Origin: Gammaproteobacteria bacterium
GTDB lineage: Bacteria; Pseudomonadota; Gammaproteobacteria; JAUZRS01
DNA length: 64,000 nt
Direction of reading: 5' to 3'
Assembly (NCBI GenBank): GCA_030949385.1
Contig: JAUZSP010000007.1
Location: 131,210 to 195,209, forward strand
Made by a program: the position numbers and the translations under genes. The notes below the pieces were generated by a model that saw only the letters and a list, made by a program, of their open reading frames with translations, was not told the origin of the DNA and searched no databases. Of this stretch, positions 32,965 through 61,517 are shown piece by piece (within the stretch, counting starts at the first letter, position 1; each line of letters starts with the position of its first letter).

Positions 32965-33461
32965 TGACCCATTCCAGCCAGAGGTGCATCACCCAGAGAG
33001 ATCTGCGGAAACAGCTCCAGCATCACACTGCCCCCCACCTGCACCACTTCGGCTGCCCGAACTTGATCCATCAACGCAACCAAACGCTCATAAGAGACCG
33101 ATTCGGCCAGCAAAATCGACACGGATTTTTTCTCTGGATAACGAGACTTAACCTGTTGCAACACCCCTGACAAACGCTGCAACACCTTCTCATCAGACCA
33201 ACGCAACTGTTTGATGATCTGCTGATTTTGGCCAACCACAGTCAAATTGTTGGGTCGCACCACCAACTGCAAAACCCACTCCTTGGCATCTTCTGCCGCC
33301 GCTGTTTTACTGGGCAGATTCAATTCCAAAATGGTGATGCGAGAAAAAACAGCGGTAATCAATAAAAAAGGCACCAGCACCACCATCAAATTCATAAACG
33401 CGGTAATGTTCAGCTCCTCCGCCTCTTTACGACGCTGAGCTCGACGCTGATGCCGACGCAT
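32961..33461 (-). CDS. exbD: ExbD/TolR-family protein (first copy)
   Basis: A 166-residue ExbD homologue with a basic N-terminus and one membrane helix (TAFMNLMVVLVPFLLITAVF). Unlike the second copy, the helix lacks the Asp usually seen after the Met-Asp position (here MNLMV), so it may not carry protons itself. It starts one base from the end of the ExbB gene and overlaps the next gene by four bases. Confidence 0.85.
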   Translation of the reverse strand: MRRHQRRAQRRKEAEELNITAFMNLMVVLVPFLLITAVFSRITILELNLPSKTAAAEDAKEWVLQLVVRPNNLTVVGQNQQIIKQLRWSDEKVLQRLSGVLQQVKSRYPEKKSVSILLAESVSYERLVALMDQVRAAEVVQVGGSVMLELFPQISLGDAPLAGMGQ

Positions 33462-34147
33462 TAGAGCTGTATTCCTTGGGTCTCATTCGGGCCTGCTTGA
33501 GTACGGGTTTTACGTTTACGACCGGCACGCAAGGTAATGACGTTCACCAAGCGCACCGCCGCCATCTCCAAACTGTCCACCAACTCCGTGGTTTTGGTCT
33601 GCAAAAAAGCGTGCGCCAACAACAGCGGAATGCCCACCATTAACCCAAGAGCCGTGGTGTTCATGGCCACCGAGATACTGGCCGAAAGCAGGTCGGCTTT
33701 TTCCGCCGGATTGGCGTTGGCCACCGCAGTAAAGGCTTCGATCAAACCGATAATCGTACCCAACAGACCCAGCAAAGTCGCAATATTGGCCAGTGTAGCC
33801 AGATAATGAGTGCGCCTCTCCAACTGCGGCATCACCTCCATCAAACCCTCTTCCATCGCCAGCTCAATGTCTTCCCGATGCCGTGCTGTGCTAATCCGAC
33901 TCAGACCGTAACCCAAAATTTTTGCCAAGGCCGTTTGAGAATTGTCCGCCACCTTCAAGGCTTCTTTGTATTTGCCCTGCTCCAAGACCGGTTGCAACAG
34001 CCCCCAATCCTGACGATTGCGACCTTTGGCGCGATCCAGATAAAGATAACGCTCTACCGCAATTGCCGTCCCCACCGCCATTACCAGCATGATCGGGTAC
34101 ATAAACAGTCCACCGGTTTGAAAAAAGTGGATAATGACATCAAACAT
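33461..34147 (-). CDS. exbB: ExbB/TolQ/MotA-family channel protein
   Basis: Three-helix stator protein. The 228 residues show an N-terminal helix (FQTGGLFMYPIMLVMAVGTA), the long cytoplasmic loop, and the family's helices two and three (LGLLGTIIGLIEAFTAVANA and ISVAMNTTALGLMVGIPLLL). The gene leads the ExbB-ExbD-ExbD-AgmX operon. Such four-gene sets power outer-membrane or envelope machines other than classical TonB. It is divergent from the small RNA candidate. Confidence 0.9.
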   Translation of the reverse strand: MFDVIIHFFQTGGLFMYPIMLVMAVGTAIAVERYLYLDRAKGRNRQDWGLLQPVLEQGKYKEALKVADNSQTALAKILGYGLSRISTARHREDIELAMEEGLMEVMPQLERRTHYLATLANIATLLGLLGTIIGLIEAFTAVANANPAEKADLLSASISVAMNTTALGLMVGIPLLLAHAFLQTKTTELVDSLEMAAVRLVNVITLRAGRKRKTRTQAGPNETQGIQL

Positions 34148-34311
34148 TATTTTCTCCTACACGACCCTAAACCGCCCATCGGTTTAAAAGATCCGCAACG
34201 GTTTTTGCTGCATCTTTCGGGCTAGAGTAAAACAAACTTACCGATAAAACTGTGAAGGAAAAGACAAAAGTAGCGAAATAGCAGACGGCACTGCCTGTTT
34301 TGTGAAGGCCG

Positions 34312-34446
34312 TTGACTTAGAATAGCGGGGCGTTATCGATAAGGATGTAAGCCAAACCGGCAACGGGTTGGCCACAAGGAAGAGGAAGGATTCTGATCGC
34401 TACCAACGAATTAGCAGGGAGCCTGATTCATTGGTATTTTTATTTT
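34312..34446 (+). ncRNA. Candidate intergenic small RNA with terminator
   Basis: A possible -35 (TTGACT) lies at 34312. GCCAA and CCG pair with CGG and TTGGC around a GCAA tetraloop (34351-34372). A purine-rich single strand follows with several GGA motifs (AAGGATG, AAGGAAG, GGAAGG). A terminator closes it: TACCAA at 34401-34406 pairs with TTGGTA at 34431-34436, with CAGG/CCTG inside, then TTTTTATTTT. GGA repeats in unpaired parts recall CsrA/RsmA-sponge RNAs. No coding frame explains this stretch. The family is not identified. Confidence 0.55.
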
Positions 34447-34458
34447 ATCCAAAAAAAT

Positions 34459-34839
34459 TCAAGCCACTTGCATCGGAATAGCATTGGCACTGCGTACCAT
34501 CTCATTGGCTTCATTGACATAAATCAAACGGGGTTTAAAGGCCTTCGCTTCTTGAGTAGACAGCTGTGTATACGCACAGATAATGACCCTGTCATTTGGG
34601 TTGGCTTTATGCGCTGCTGCACCGTTCACCGAAATCATCCCCGAACCCGCTTCACCCCGAATCACATAAGTGGTAAAACGCTCGCCATTATCAACGTTGT
34701 AAATCTGGATCTGTTCGTATTCCAAAATACCCGACGCATCCAATAAATCCGCATCAATCGCACAAGAGCCTTCATACTCCAGCTCCACTTGAGTAACACG
34801 CACTTTGTGCAATTTTGCCTTTAACATCGTGACCTGCAT
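34459..34839 (-). CDS. panD: Aspartate 1-decarboxylase
   Basis: Makes beta-alanine for pantothenate. The 126-residue precursor self-cleaves between Gly and Ser in YEGSCAID to form the pyruvoyl group. The start at 34839 ([16 protein letters not shown]) matches the E. coli start pattern. It follows panC by 77 bp on the same strand. Confidence 0.96.
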
Positions 34840-42874: not shown

Positions 42875-44257
42875 TCAAACAGCCTTTGTATAACGTTGCT
42901 GAAGATAGGCAAACACGGTGCGAATGCCCATCGCCTCACCGCCTTCAGGCCGCCCAGGTCGAGGACGGTTGTTCCACGCCATGACATCAAAGTGCAACCA
43001 TTCGATTTCATCAGGTACAAACGCCTGCAAAAAGAGCGCAGCGGTAATCGCCCCACCTTGAGGCACCGTAGCCGAATTAAGCAGATCGGTAATTTTGCTC
43101 TCAATAAACCCTCGGTACTCCTGATGCAACGGCAAACGCCAAGTAGGGTCTTGCAGCTCAGCAGAGAGACTCATCAACTGCTGGGCAGTATCGTCATTGG
43201 TAGCAAAAAAGGCCGCCACCTCCGTCCCCACCGCTACCCGTGCCGCACCGGTCAACGTAGCAAAATCGAGCAACAGCTCCGGCGACTCTTCCGCCGCCAA
43301 GGCCAAGGCATCACACAACACCAAACGCCCTTCCGCATCGGTGTTATCAATCTCAATGCCTAAGCCCTTACGAGAAGCCAATACGTCACCAGGCCGAAAC
43401 GCATTTCCAGAAATAGCATTCTCTACCGCAGGCACCAACACTCGCAATCTCACAGGCACTTTAGCCGCCATAATCATCGAGGCCAGAGCCAGCACATGCG
43501 CGCCACCGCCCATGTCCTTTTTCATCCAACGCATAAACTGCCCGGGTTTGATGTTCAGCCCACCGCTGTCAAAACAGACCCCTTTGCCCACCAAGGTCAC
43601 CTTGGGGTGAGACACATCACCCCAATTCAGATCCAACAGACGCGGTTCAAACACACTCGCCCGACCCACGGCATGAATGGCTGGAAAATTATTCTCCAAC
43701 AACTGCTCACCCACCACTTCGGAAAATTCAGCACCAAACTGTCCAGCCAACGTGCGCATCACCTCCGATAGGTCAGCAGGCATCATGTCTTGAGCGGGGG
43801 TATTGAGCAGATCACGACAGAGACAGGTGGCCTCCACCTGCTGCTGCACTGCGGCCAAATCACCTTGTTTCATTAACAATCGCGCAGGTTGGCGAGCAAA
43901 TTTACGATACCGATCAAATTGATACGCCCCTAACCCCCAACTCAAGGCCAGCTTTTCTGCCAAAGGTACATTCACACTCGCCTCTAACGCATAAACCCCC
44001 TCAGGCAAAGACAACGACAGTGAGCCAAACGCCCAAAAATCAGCATCATCGTTCAAACAGACCAACACCGCTTCCAGCCCACCTTCTGAATCAGACAGCA
44101 GAGAAAATTGCCCAGAACGCGGCTCAAAGGCCGAATTAAGCAACCACCGTTGCCGCACTTTGGGCTGTGCCGCCACCCAGCTGTCGTAATCACCAGCAAA
44201 TACCACATGCAGAGGCACAGTCTGCTCACTGGTTTGACTCAAAAGCACATCAGACAT
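42875..44257 (-). CDS. M17-family aminopeptidase (PepA/PepB-like)
   Basis: Dizinc leucyl-type aminopeptidase. The 460 residues have a short N-domain and the catalytic domain with KGVCFDSGGLNIKPGQFMRW (catalytic Lys and Asp), MKKDMGGGAHVLALASMIMA and NTDAEGRLVLCDALALA. It is shorter than PepA (about 500), closer to the PepB-like group. It probably trims cytoplasmic peptides. Confidence 0.93.
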   Translation of the reverse strand: MSDVLLSQTSEQTVPLHVVFAGDYDSWVAAQPKVRQRWLLNSAFEPRSGQFSLLSDSEGGLEAVLVCLNDDADFWAFGSLSLSLPEGVYALEASVNVPLAEKLALSWGLGAYQFDRYRKFARQPARLLMKQGDLAAVQQQVEATCLCRDLLNTPAQDMMPADLSEVMRTLAGQFGAEFSEVVGEQLLENNFPAIHAVGRASVFEPRLLDLNWGDVSHPKVTLVGKGVCFDSGGLNIKPGQFMRWMKKDMGGGAHVLALASMIMAAKVPVRLRVLVPAVENAISGNAFRPGDVLASRKGLGIEIDNTDAEGRLVLCDALALAAEESPELLLDFATLTGAARVAVGTEVAAFFATNDDTAQQLMSLSAELQDPTWRLPLHQEYRGFIESKITDLLNSATVPQGGAITAALFLQAFVPDEIEWLHFDVMAWNNRPRPGRPEGGEAMGIRTVFAYLQQRYTKAV

Positions 44258-44323
44258 GGAGAATCCTTTTTAATCGGCTCTAAAAATGAAAGCCATTCTA
44301 ACCCGAGTCATAAAATTCAGGCG

Positions 44324-44350
44324 AAAAAAAAGACCCTCAACAGAGGGTCT
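44324..44350 (-). terminator. Terminator after the NHL-repeat protein gene
   Basis: AGACCCTC pairs with GAGGGTCT around TGTT on the minus strand, followed by seven or eight T. Confidence 0.88.
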
Positions 44351-44415
44351 TCTTAGATGAACGTCTTACCTTAAAAGAGGTAAGAGCCGCTGCATCAAAC
44401 TACAACTTTAAACGA

Positions 44416-46218
44416 TTACTCGTCATCGTCATCGTCATCGTCATCGTCTTCGTCATCGTCTTCGTCTTCGTCATCATCTTCGTCATCATCTTCGTCATCA
44501 TCTTCGTCTTCGTCTTCGTCTTCGGCGTGACGATCCAACTCAATAACTGGAGCAGCAGTCACAACCGGAGCTGTCACAACTGGAGCTGTCACAACTGGAG
44601 CTGTCACAACTGGAGCTGTCACAACTGGAGCTGTCACAACTGGAGCTGCCACAACTGGAGGAGCAATCGTAACCGTAGCTGCCGCAGAAACCGCGCTAAG
44701 GTTACCTGCAACATCCGTTGCTGTAGCCGTCACGCTGTAAGTTCCATCAGCCAGTCCCAGCAGATCAGTTGTCCAATTGCCAGCCGCATCAGAGGTCACC
44801 AAAGCAGCCGCAAAGGAACCGGCAACCGTTACATACACCGTACTGCCAACTTCGGCACTGCCAGTGATCGTCACAACCGCACCCGAAAGCAGGTTAGCTG
44901 CGGTGCTCACAAGCGGTGCCGCAGGAGCCACAGTATCCAATGTGATGCTTGAGGTTACCCGCGAGCTGTTACCAGCCATATCGACCAGAGTCACTGTGAC
45001 CGTTTGAATGCCTTGAACCGCTGGATCCAACGCACACGCCGCCAAAGTAGTCGGAGCCAAAGCACCCACGGTGCAGGTAAAGGCCGCTGCATCACAACCG
45101 CTCTCTGCATCGTTACAGGTCGCTGTTACGTTGATGGTCGTGCTGTTGGTCAGAGTCGCACCTGCATCAACAGTCACGCTGCCGGTAGGTGGCGTAATAT
45201 CAGCCGGAGCAAAGACATAACTTTGCGCGGCATCAGCAATATGAACCGTACCATCCGCCGCAATATCAAACCCCGTTGCAGTACCCAAAGTTGGTGCAGG
45301 ATTGGCTAAATTAGGAATTGCTTCCACAACCGTTGCAGCTGCAAATCCAGTAGCTGGATTCATCTGCATTACATCGCCACCACGACTGTAATAAAGGGTG
45401 CCCGCATTTAACTCTAGATCTGTATTAGCATCTATTGATGCACCCACTGGTGAAAATGCAATGACTGAAGACCCAGCCGCAGTCACTTTGCGAATAAAAG
45501 AAGTATCTGGCGTTGTTTCAACAACATACATATTATTGGCATCATCAATAGCAACACCTGATGGTGCTAATAGCCCTGAAGCTGCCGTAGTTACGACACC
45601 AGCCACATCAATTTTAGCAACACAGCCCTCTCGGACATTGGAAACATACAGGTTTCCTGCCGCATCCAAAGCCATATCATTGGCACTGGAGGCATCAAAG
45701 ATTAAGGAACACATTACAAAACCAGTACGATAATTGGCTATCTGCTGACCTGTCGGCGCATATTTATACACACCATGAAACACAGTAGTAAATGTGGCTG
45801 AATCCCAAGACGCACCTGCATCAATAACATACAGATTATCCGCACCATCCAGCATAATGCTTACAGGCACAGCGTTAGCATCAAGCATTACGGTCGATAA
45901 CACACCCGCTGCATCAATCTTACGCAGCGCCGTTTGACCTGGCGCAGAAGGATCAAGACCCGCCGCAACCGTCTCAATAAAATAGACGTTACCCACCGAA
46001 TCCACCGCCACATCAATGGGTGCATTAACTGACGCACCTAATGCCACAGCCCCATCAACCGTCTGAATTGCATCACCACTGCCTGCAATTTCTGTCACCG
46101 CTGCCGCTGCCGGTTGCGCCGCTGCAACCGCCAAGGTCAAAACACTTATTTTTCCCAACGAATTCAAACCGTTCACCGTTCTACTTATTGCAGAACGCAA
46201 CATCGAGTGCTCACTCAT
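44416..46218 (-). CDS. Secreted NHL-repeat / Ig-like protein with VVTAP repeats and a poly-acidic tail
   Basis: The start is ATG at 46218 (MSEHSMLRSAISRTVNGLNS), with AGGAGGGGG 7 bases upstream. An apparent signal segment (ISVLTLAVAAAQPAAAA) is followed by NHL-type beta-propeller repeats (DVAVDSVGNVYFIETVAAGL; LDAAGNLYVSNVREGCVAKI), two Ig-like domains (PPTGSVTVDAGATLTNSTTI; GSAEVGSTVYVTVAGSFAAA) and six VVTAP copies coded by 15-bp DNA repeats (44552-44661). It ends in about 35 nearly continuous Asp/Glu residues coded by 44419-44523. The protein has 600 residues. The tail could bind calcium; function is unknown. It is likely extracellular. Confidence 0.8.
   Translation of the reverse strand: MSEHSMLRSAISRTVNGLNSLGKISVLTLAVAAAQPAAAAVTEIAGSGDAIQTVDGAVALGASVNAPIDVAVDSVGNVYFIETVAAGLDPSAPGQTALRKIDAAGVLSTVMLDANAVPVSIMLDGADNLYVIDAGASWDSATFTTVFHGVYKYAPTGQQIANYRTGFVMCSLIFDASSANDMALDAAGNLYVSNVREGCVAKIDVAGVVTTAASGLLAPSGVAIDDANNMYVVETTPDTSFIRKVTAAGSSVIAFSPVGASIDANTDLELNAGTLYYSRGGDVMQMNPATGFAAATVVEAIPNLANPAPTLGTATGFDIAADGTVHIADAAQSYVFAPADITPPTGSVTVDAGATLTNSTTINVTATCNDAESGCDAAAFTCTVGALAPTTLAACALDPAVQGIQTVTVTLVDMAGNSSRVTSSITLDTVAPAAPLVSTAANLLSGAVVTITGSAEVGSTVYVTVAGSFAAALVTSDAAGNWTTDLLGLADGTYSVTATATDVAGNLSAVSAAATVTIAPPVVAAPVVTAPVVTAPVVTAPVVTAPVVTAPVVTAAPVIELDRHAEDEDEDEDDDEDDDEDDDEDEDDDEDDDDDDDDDE
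44419..44661 (-). repeat. Tandem repeats coding for poly-Asp/Glu and VVTAP units
   Basis: Two adjacent repeat tracts inside the NHL gene: trinucleotide-like GTCATC/TTCGTC units (acidic tail) and six near-identical 15-bp units of GGAGCTGTCACAACT. Both are prone to copy-number change and to assembly collapse. Confidence 0.85.
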
Positions 46219-59740: not shown

Positions 59741-61517
59741 TTACTCAATATCCTGAGGAGTTAAGCTATCTATATAAAGATGCGTCATTGAACTGCTACT
59801 AAGATCAAAATAAAATTTTAAATTACCTCCTAGAACAAACTTACCCTTTATTTTTTCAAGATCACTCTCATCCATTTCCAAACGACTCAGAGCCTCGTTT
59901 TTATCAAAAGCAATAATAACTCCATCACTTTCCAAACCATCCTTAAATTCAAGATTGTACCTTATTTTTGATGGTTCAATAAATACATATGGACACTCAT
60001 CTGACACCCCTTTATCCAATGATTCAACACTCCCATCAACACAAACAATATTCTTGTTAACAAGTAACTCTGACATTTCTGGGTATTTCATCGCCAAATT
60101 AAATCCTGTTATTTCACAATAGCTGTCCATACAACGATCCAATTCAGAACTACTGGATGCTTCTTGAATATCCAACACAATAGACTCCAGTTTCATGCGT
60201 GTATCTTCTTTGTACCTTGAAAGAGAGTCATACCCATAAATATTATGAATATCTTTATCCAACCCAACATCAAACCACCAAACCGATGGAATATTAAGCG
60301 ACACCTGCTTGTATCTTAGTTTTATTGCAAGCTCACACATAACCAATAAATTAATTTGATCAGAAGACAAAAGGCTAAATTCGCAATCATTCTCAGTCAC
60401 ACCACTATCACCAATCTTGTAGGGGTTAAGCAAAGAAACAATATCAGAACGCCCACTTATTTTATCAAACAATCTCTCTATTTTTCTATATGGGCTTCTT
60501 GTATCACTAATATCAAAATCAAACTTATCCAAGAATCCATCAATAGATGCCCTTTGGTATCCTGATAGCTCTCCTCCCTCATTATGAACCCACCCAAGAA
60601 TATACTCCCTTATTTCATCAGAGATAGATTCCCTATACTCAATATTTTTATACTTATTTCTAATCGAATTAATTTCATCTATAAAATCAATATAAATCCT
60701 CCCTATCGGATGATCTTCATTTAAAACACGACCTAGAGACCACCGCGAAGTAACCCACCCATAGGCATCCAATTTAATTGCAAAGTGCTTTTTAATTTCA
60801 TTCTTAAACTCCTTCTCTTTTTTCAACAGCAAAACCCTATCATCATCTTTTAAAACGGAAATACTGAGCGACCGTTTTGACTTTATATTTACCACACCCT
60901 CATCACCTGAATCAGACACCCTTAAATCAGAAATAATTTTTTTAATACCACTTGGGGATACAAAAATACACTGCCTCATTTTGCTTTCATCCAGCGCAAG
61001 AAACAACAACTCACTATAGAAGTGAGAATACATTGACTTTCTTATAATATCTTCAACTGAACTTTTCGCCTCACATTTCCCTATCAATTCATTTATATAT
61101 TCCATGCTCTTTTTTGTTTCAGCAATCGTCAACAAAACACCTGTTTCAATGTTTGACTTCACAGCCCTGTTAGTAAGATTACCAGACCCTAAATAAATAC
61201 ACATACTTTCTTTTGATTTAGCAGCAAACAATTTTGCATGCATCAATGGACTCTTAACGAGAGTGAATTTGAAATATGGCAATGTAGTCATATGAATTAT
61301 TTCATCCACCACCTCATGAAACGGATTAACCGATTCCATCGAAAAAATAACATTCACCACTGCTTTTTTTATTTCTTTTTTTCATCAAGTCCAGTATGTC
61401 TAAAACCAAATCTTTCGAAAAATATGCAAAAGCCAACCATAACTCATCAACATCTTCATCCTTAATTAAACTCTTCAGTTTTTCATAAGGAAAGCCATGC
61501 GTATACTCGTAATTCAC
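59741..61517 (-). CDS. PLD-superfamily protein, frameshifted near the N-terminus, possible defence nuclease
   Basis: The first frame begins at 61517 (MNYEYTHGFPYEKLKSLIKD) and includes LWLAFAYFSKDLVLDILDL; after the T7 run at 61364-61370 the frame changes. One base fewer joins it to AVVNVIFSMESVNPFHEVVD and gives about 591 residues. The PLD-like motif is MHAKLFAAKSKESMCIYLGS, then GNLTNRAVKSN; it has H-x-K and GS-G-N, but lacks the usual Asp, so catalysis is uncertain. Residues after about 190 show no known domain. Strong AT bias and the neighbouring IS suggest transfer. A stand-alone PLD defence gene is possible. Confidence 0.65.

Follow-up and report, generated by a model that had tools for sequence, protein, structure and literature searches.

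Does the intergenic gap between exbB and panD encode a small RNA, and could such an RNA act by sequestering CsrA? The question was raised by a first-pass annotation of the window (the whole 64,000-nt stretch of DNA analysed here, from a 2.87-Mb gammaproteobacterial assembly). There, a promoter-like TTGACT, a GCAA-capped hairpin, several GGA motifs and an intrinsic terminator were read as a plus-strand small RNA (sRNA) titrating CsrA/RsmA, placed in a gap with both neighbours on the minus strand. The arrangement of the genes is as described: the gap spans 311 bp (34148-34458) and is flanked by exbB (33461-34147) and panD (34459-34839), both on the minus strand. Neither the locus nor the organism was named in the publication listings searched. 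With a probability of roughly 0.7, the sequence of the locus points to a CsrA-titrating sRNA of about 112 nt on the plus strand.

Architecture of the putative RNA

The GCAA-capped hairpin is recovered both in the sequence and in the predicted fold (Table 1), and the proposed intrinsic terminator is likewise present as a hairpin with TTTTTATTTT directly 3' of it. A generic terminator scan did not list this hairpin, presumably owing to mismatches in the stem. The GGA motifs also stand as claimed, since five GGA (at 34343, 34378, 34384, 34388 and 34418), including four ANGGA, occur on the plus strand; over this stretch the minus strand contains neither GGA nor ANGGA. One ANGGA lies near the 5' end, two lie in the purine-rich single-stranded linker and one lies in the terminator loop. 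In the predicted fold the four ANGGA are mostly unpaired, one of them inside a five-base hairpin loop. The GGA at 34388 and at 34418 have unpaired probabilities of 0.95 or more, that at 34378 has one of about 0.6-0.8, and pairing is partial for the first and third; counted by pairing, the five comprise two unpaired at that level, two partly paired and one mostly paired. The linker is proposed as the main CsrA-binding stretch. The folding energy of the whole RNA is just mildly low (z -1.64).

Table 1. Positions of the features of the putative sRNA locus and of the host's CsrB-like RNA
Feature	Position	Strand	Basis or remark
Proposed sRNA, ~112 nt	34330..34442	+	Fold, GGA/ANGGA counts, unpaired probabilities; 5' end inferred from -10, 3' end from T-run
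Candidate -10, TAGAAT	34318..34323	+	5/6 consensus; weak -35 CTGTTT 17 nt upstream, 2/6
First ANGGA (AAGGA)	34341..34345	+	Motif count and fold; partly paired in predicted fold
Stem-loop with GCAA (GNRA) cap	34351..34372	+	Sequence and predicted fold
Purine-rich linker with three GGA (CACAAGGAAGAGGAAGGAUU)	34373..34400	+	Unpaired probabilities
Terminator hairpin with AGGGA in loop	34401..34436	+	Sequence and fold, about -12.9 kcal/mol
Terminator T-run	34437..34446	+	Sequence
GTAA-N7-TTAC inverted repeat, upstream	34227..34241		Weak; possible non-canonical response-regulator site
Longest identical run vs sister species, 257 nt	34166..34422		18,470 positions compared; upstream region and most of RNA
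CsrB-like RNA	L147:1475-1842; G000:C7 around 325488-325662	-	CsrB model and reading of sequence

The number of plain GGA is ordinary for the composition, five being reached in 34% of shuffles. In dinucleotide shuffles of the stretch (114 nt), four or more ANGGA turn up in 1.2-1.5% of cases and three AAGGA in 0.3%; when the whole gap is shuffled, four or more ANGGA turn up in 3.5%. Scanning both strands of the window gave 58 terminator-like hairpins. In the 110 nt before them, ANGGA is absent in 47 cases, occurs once in nine and twice in one; the terminator of the putative sRNA, with four, is the sole one with more than two. Four ANGGA per 112 nt occur at two places in the window, the second of which (60523-60647, minus strand) reads as an open frame.

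The main rival is a real plus-strand sRNA that works by base-pairing or some other mechanism, its GGA-rich linker being incidental. Terminator, conservation and GNRA hairpin do not by themselves imply CsrA, and the plain GGA count is inside the shuffle range; however, the ANGGA density is an outlier among the window's terminators and one GGA is placed within a hairpin loop, which is how CsrA sites are usually presented according to an excerpt of PMC7652899, and on balance this rival appears unlikely. That the plus strand carries instead the mRNA of a small protein is highly improbable, as the TTG-started 37-codon frame that could suggest it (34368-34481) crosses the terminator into panD, which lies on the opposite strand, and the ATG at 34345 has TAA as its next codon.

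Upstream region and conservation

The promoter was the part of the first-pass annotation that did not hold. TTGACT (34312-34317) has no -10 above 3/6 matches at 13-19 nt spacing, a consensus promoter scan found none at this position, and it was dropped as a -35. TAGAAT, which starts directly after TTGACT and is the same in the sister species, is a likelier -10 on sequence than any available to TTGACT. Its poor -35 would be as expected for an activator-dependent promoter. Transcription on the plus strand would proceed from this promoter and end at the hairpin and T-run (34401-34446).

In Pseudomonas the canonical GacA box has the consensus TGTAAG-N6-CTTACA. No such box is present upstream of the putative sRNA, where the best match is 7/12, a score matched or exceeded at 703 plus-strand positions of the window. 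The GTAA-N7-TTAC repeat comes closest to a response-regulator site and differs from the Pseudomonas consensus. Across the whole genome the box pattern occurs with one mismatch at four places, versus one for a reversed-pattern control, and none of the four has a convincing GGA-rich RNA. A canonical box was not seen upstream of the CsrB-like RNA of this genome (see below) either, so the operator in this host may differ from the GacA box; a comparison of the upstream regions of the two RNAs gave no common motif beyond shuffles.

The sister species is about 95% identical (94.6% at L002), and between 34166 and 34494 it differs by one substitution. The gap differs at 2/311 positions (0.6%); for coding DNA the figure is 5.9%, and for the eight other comparable gaps longer than 60 bp it is 1.3-10.8%. 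The longest identical run in the comparison falls here (Table 1), an argument drawn from one close species; the same 18.5 kb also contains identical stretches of 228 and 221 nt elsewhere, so uneven rates or recombination may play a part. The sole substitution within the RNA, 34423 C>T, turns a G-C pair of the terminator stem into G-U and leaves the predicted terminator energy unchanged. In 80 exbB upstream regions of relatives, panD lies next to exbB only in the sister species. Within 110 nt of the strand opposite to exbB, this species has four ANGGA and the other 79 have at most three.

Part of the conserved stretch probably serves the control of exbB, because it holds a perfect 7-bp inverted repeat, TAAACCG-N5-CGGTTTA (34168-34186), immediately before the ribosome-binding site of exbB, together with a weak match to a promoter on the minus strand at 34256-34226; the repeat may form an exbB leader hairpin. 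Extending this to the entire gap, as an exbB leader or promoter plus the panD 3' end with no separate RNA, is improbable. The region 34330-34446 is at least 180 bp from exbB and past the panD stop, no T-run follows the 34401-34436 hairpin on the minus strand, and the T-run and all GGA, which are fully kept in the sister species, are plus-strand features.

Elsewhere in the window, a 160-nt run identical in the sister species (44227-44386) covers much of another intergenic gap, in which the minus strand carries a hairpin, GAAGACCCTC-GAGGGTCTT, that resembles a terminator. At 44419-44520 there is a long GTCATC/TCGTCT-type repeat whose minus strand, by eye, would encode an acidic run.

Relatives and the host CsrA circuit

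The covariance search in related genomes that had been suggested as a check did not extend the family: a two-sequence model matched the genome itself and the sister species alone in 369 genomes, and found no second copy in the former. Searching 274 genomes of the class by blastn returned the same two plus one 24-nt chance match (L121), which, judged by eye, falls in coding-like sequence lacking a GGA array, and with neither method was an sRNA relative seen outside the genus. The first blastn genome set comprised the genome itself, one same-genus genome and 35 marked as related at class level only. Nearer relatives thus seem to be missing from the set, and the lack of matches elsewhere is weak evidence of absence, since Csr sRNAs are described as conserved more in structure than in sequence (an excerpt of PMC9927453). 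Weak blastn matches fell at 28 loci (L003-L030; best 18-nt, E 0.0045), and the five inspected (L004, L006, L007, L008 and L012) contain no comparable RNA. The phage and plasmid collections searched gave no matches.

Searched against Rfam at E up to 10, the gap gave no match, and whole-genome runs of the RsmY (RF00195), PrrB_RsmZ (RF00166) and CsrB (RF00018) models did not report the locus. Among their other matches, the one inspected of six to the RsmZ model (L112 of L112-L117) is an inverted repeat pair with few GGA, and the four inspected of seven to the RsmY model (L143-L146) are terminators or repeats with 0-1 ANGGA. The L112 pair (L112:1490-1640) surrounds GGGGCGGATTCCATATCCGCCC and GGGCAGATATGGAATCTGCCCC, is intergenic and is possibly a small mobile repeat. 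At L145:1545-1620, GTCATTCCCGCGAAGGCGGGAATCC inverted repeats lie, by eye, between an apparent radical-SAM-like gene and CRISPR cas2/cas1-like genes.

The host has a single csrA gene, which scores above the curated cut-offs in Pfam and for two NCBIfam models; its product has L4 and R44, the two residues marked in a CsrA structure figure of PMC7652899. A LuxR-type regulator is encoded directly upstream of uvrC; its best family is UvrY/SirA/GacA at 251 bits, below the cut-off of 280, with the next family at 155. The BarA model met many hybrid kinases in the genome, none above its cut-off, so no cognate sensor was picked out.

The CsrB model matched the genome once, below threshold (24.3 bits, E 9.8e-5), beside a tRNA-Ser gene. 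This score alone is insufficient, since the same search had matches in 5 of 14 control genomes, just one of them above the cut-off. The 367-nt sequence read at this place has 16 GGA, eight ANGGA and five AAGGA, reached in 13.5%, 1.2% and 0 of 2000 dinucleotide shuffles, respectively, and also a terminator hairpin of -20.9 kcal/mol. We take it, from its sequence, to be the CsrB-type RNA of this genome, missed by the Rfam threshold. It has CCACAAGGA in common with the linker of the putative sRNA.

Comparison with known CsrA-titrating RNAs

The best reading of the locus is a putative second CsrA-titrating RNA of this genome, of RsmX/RsmY size. The four ANGGA sites would bind CsrA dimers and thereby release CsrA from mRNAs, with the sRNA acting as small partner to the larger CsrB-like RNA and perhaps being switched on by the UvrY/GacA-type regulator encoded beside uvrC; transcription, CsrA binding and UvrY control are what we infer. 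The titration proposed in the first-pass annotation is therefore kept as the best fit to the four mostly unpaired ANGGA, the terminator, the conservation and a host with csrA, a uvrY/gacA-uvrC pair and a CsrB-like RNA, and its promoter assignment is probably wrong. A pre-filter for RsmA-pathway sRNAs, as given in an excerpt of PMC5568370, asks for at least two ANGGA, the last of them no more than 60 nt from a poly-U tail, and for an intrinsic terminator; the sRNA passes it. RNAs with a single GGA fail to titrate RsmA, several being required (an excerpt of PMC2375449), and the present sRNA has five. RsmX-1 and RsmX-2 of P. brassicacearum are 110-111 nt long with six GGA (an excerpt of PMC7911923). 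The five GGA, the pre-filter result and the RsmX-like size and GGA number favour a CsrA-titrating sRNA.

A wider proposal, possible but doubtful, is a lineage-private family of CsrA sponges built from a GNRA hairpin, a purine linker with three GGA and a terminator loop that is itself a CsrA site, through which CsrA could protect or modulate the 3' end, working beside a CsrB-like RNA and a UvrY with an operator unlike the known GacA box. The sRNA would be a known kind of RNA that matches no listed family. Csr/Rsm sponge RNAs diverge too fast for family models to catch them. Together with the CsrB-like RNA it suggests a whole circuit of CsrA, UvrY and sponges, one long and one short, in an uncultured, deep-branching deep-sea gammaproteobacterium, and the locus could serve as a test case for scans based on ANGGA plus terminator in place of homology.

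Like RsmX, RsmY and RsmZ, the putative sRNA combines a length of about 110 nt (RsmX) and several unpaired ANGGA with a host CsrA/RsmA and GacA-type regulator (excerpts of PMC7911923 and PMC2375449); unlike them, it matches no Rfam model and has no canonical GacA palindrome upstream. With CsrB and CsrC it would share CsrA titration via repeated GGA, and its CCACAAGGA recurs in the host's CsrB-like RNA, but it is much shorter, with five GGA against 22 in E. coli CsrB (an excerpt of PMC7652899) and 16 in that CsrB-like RNA. It also resembles CsrR2 of Alcanivorax dieselolei, described in an excerpt of PMC9788540 as a putative CsrA-related sRNA with genus-level conservation, its own promoter and six unpaired GGA; CsrR2 was seen by dRNA-seq, whereas the present sRNA is known as a sequence.
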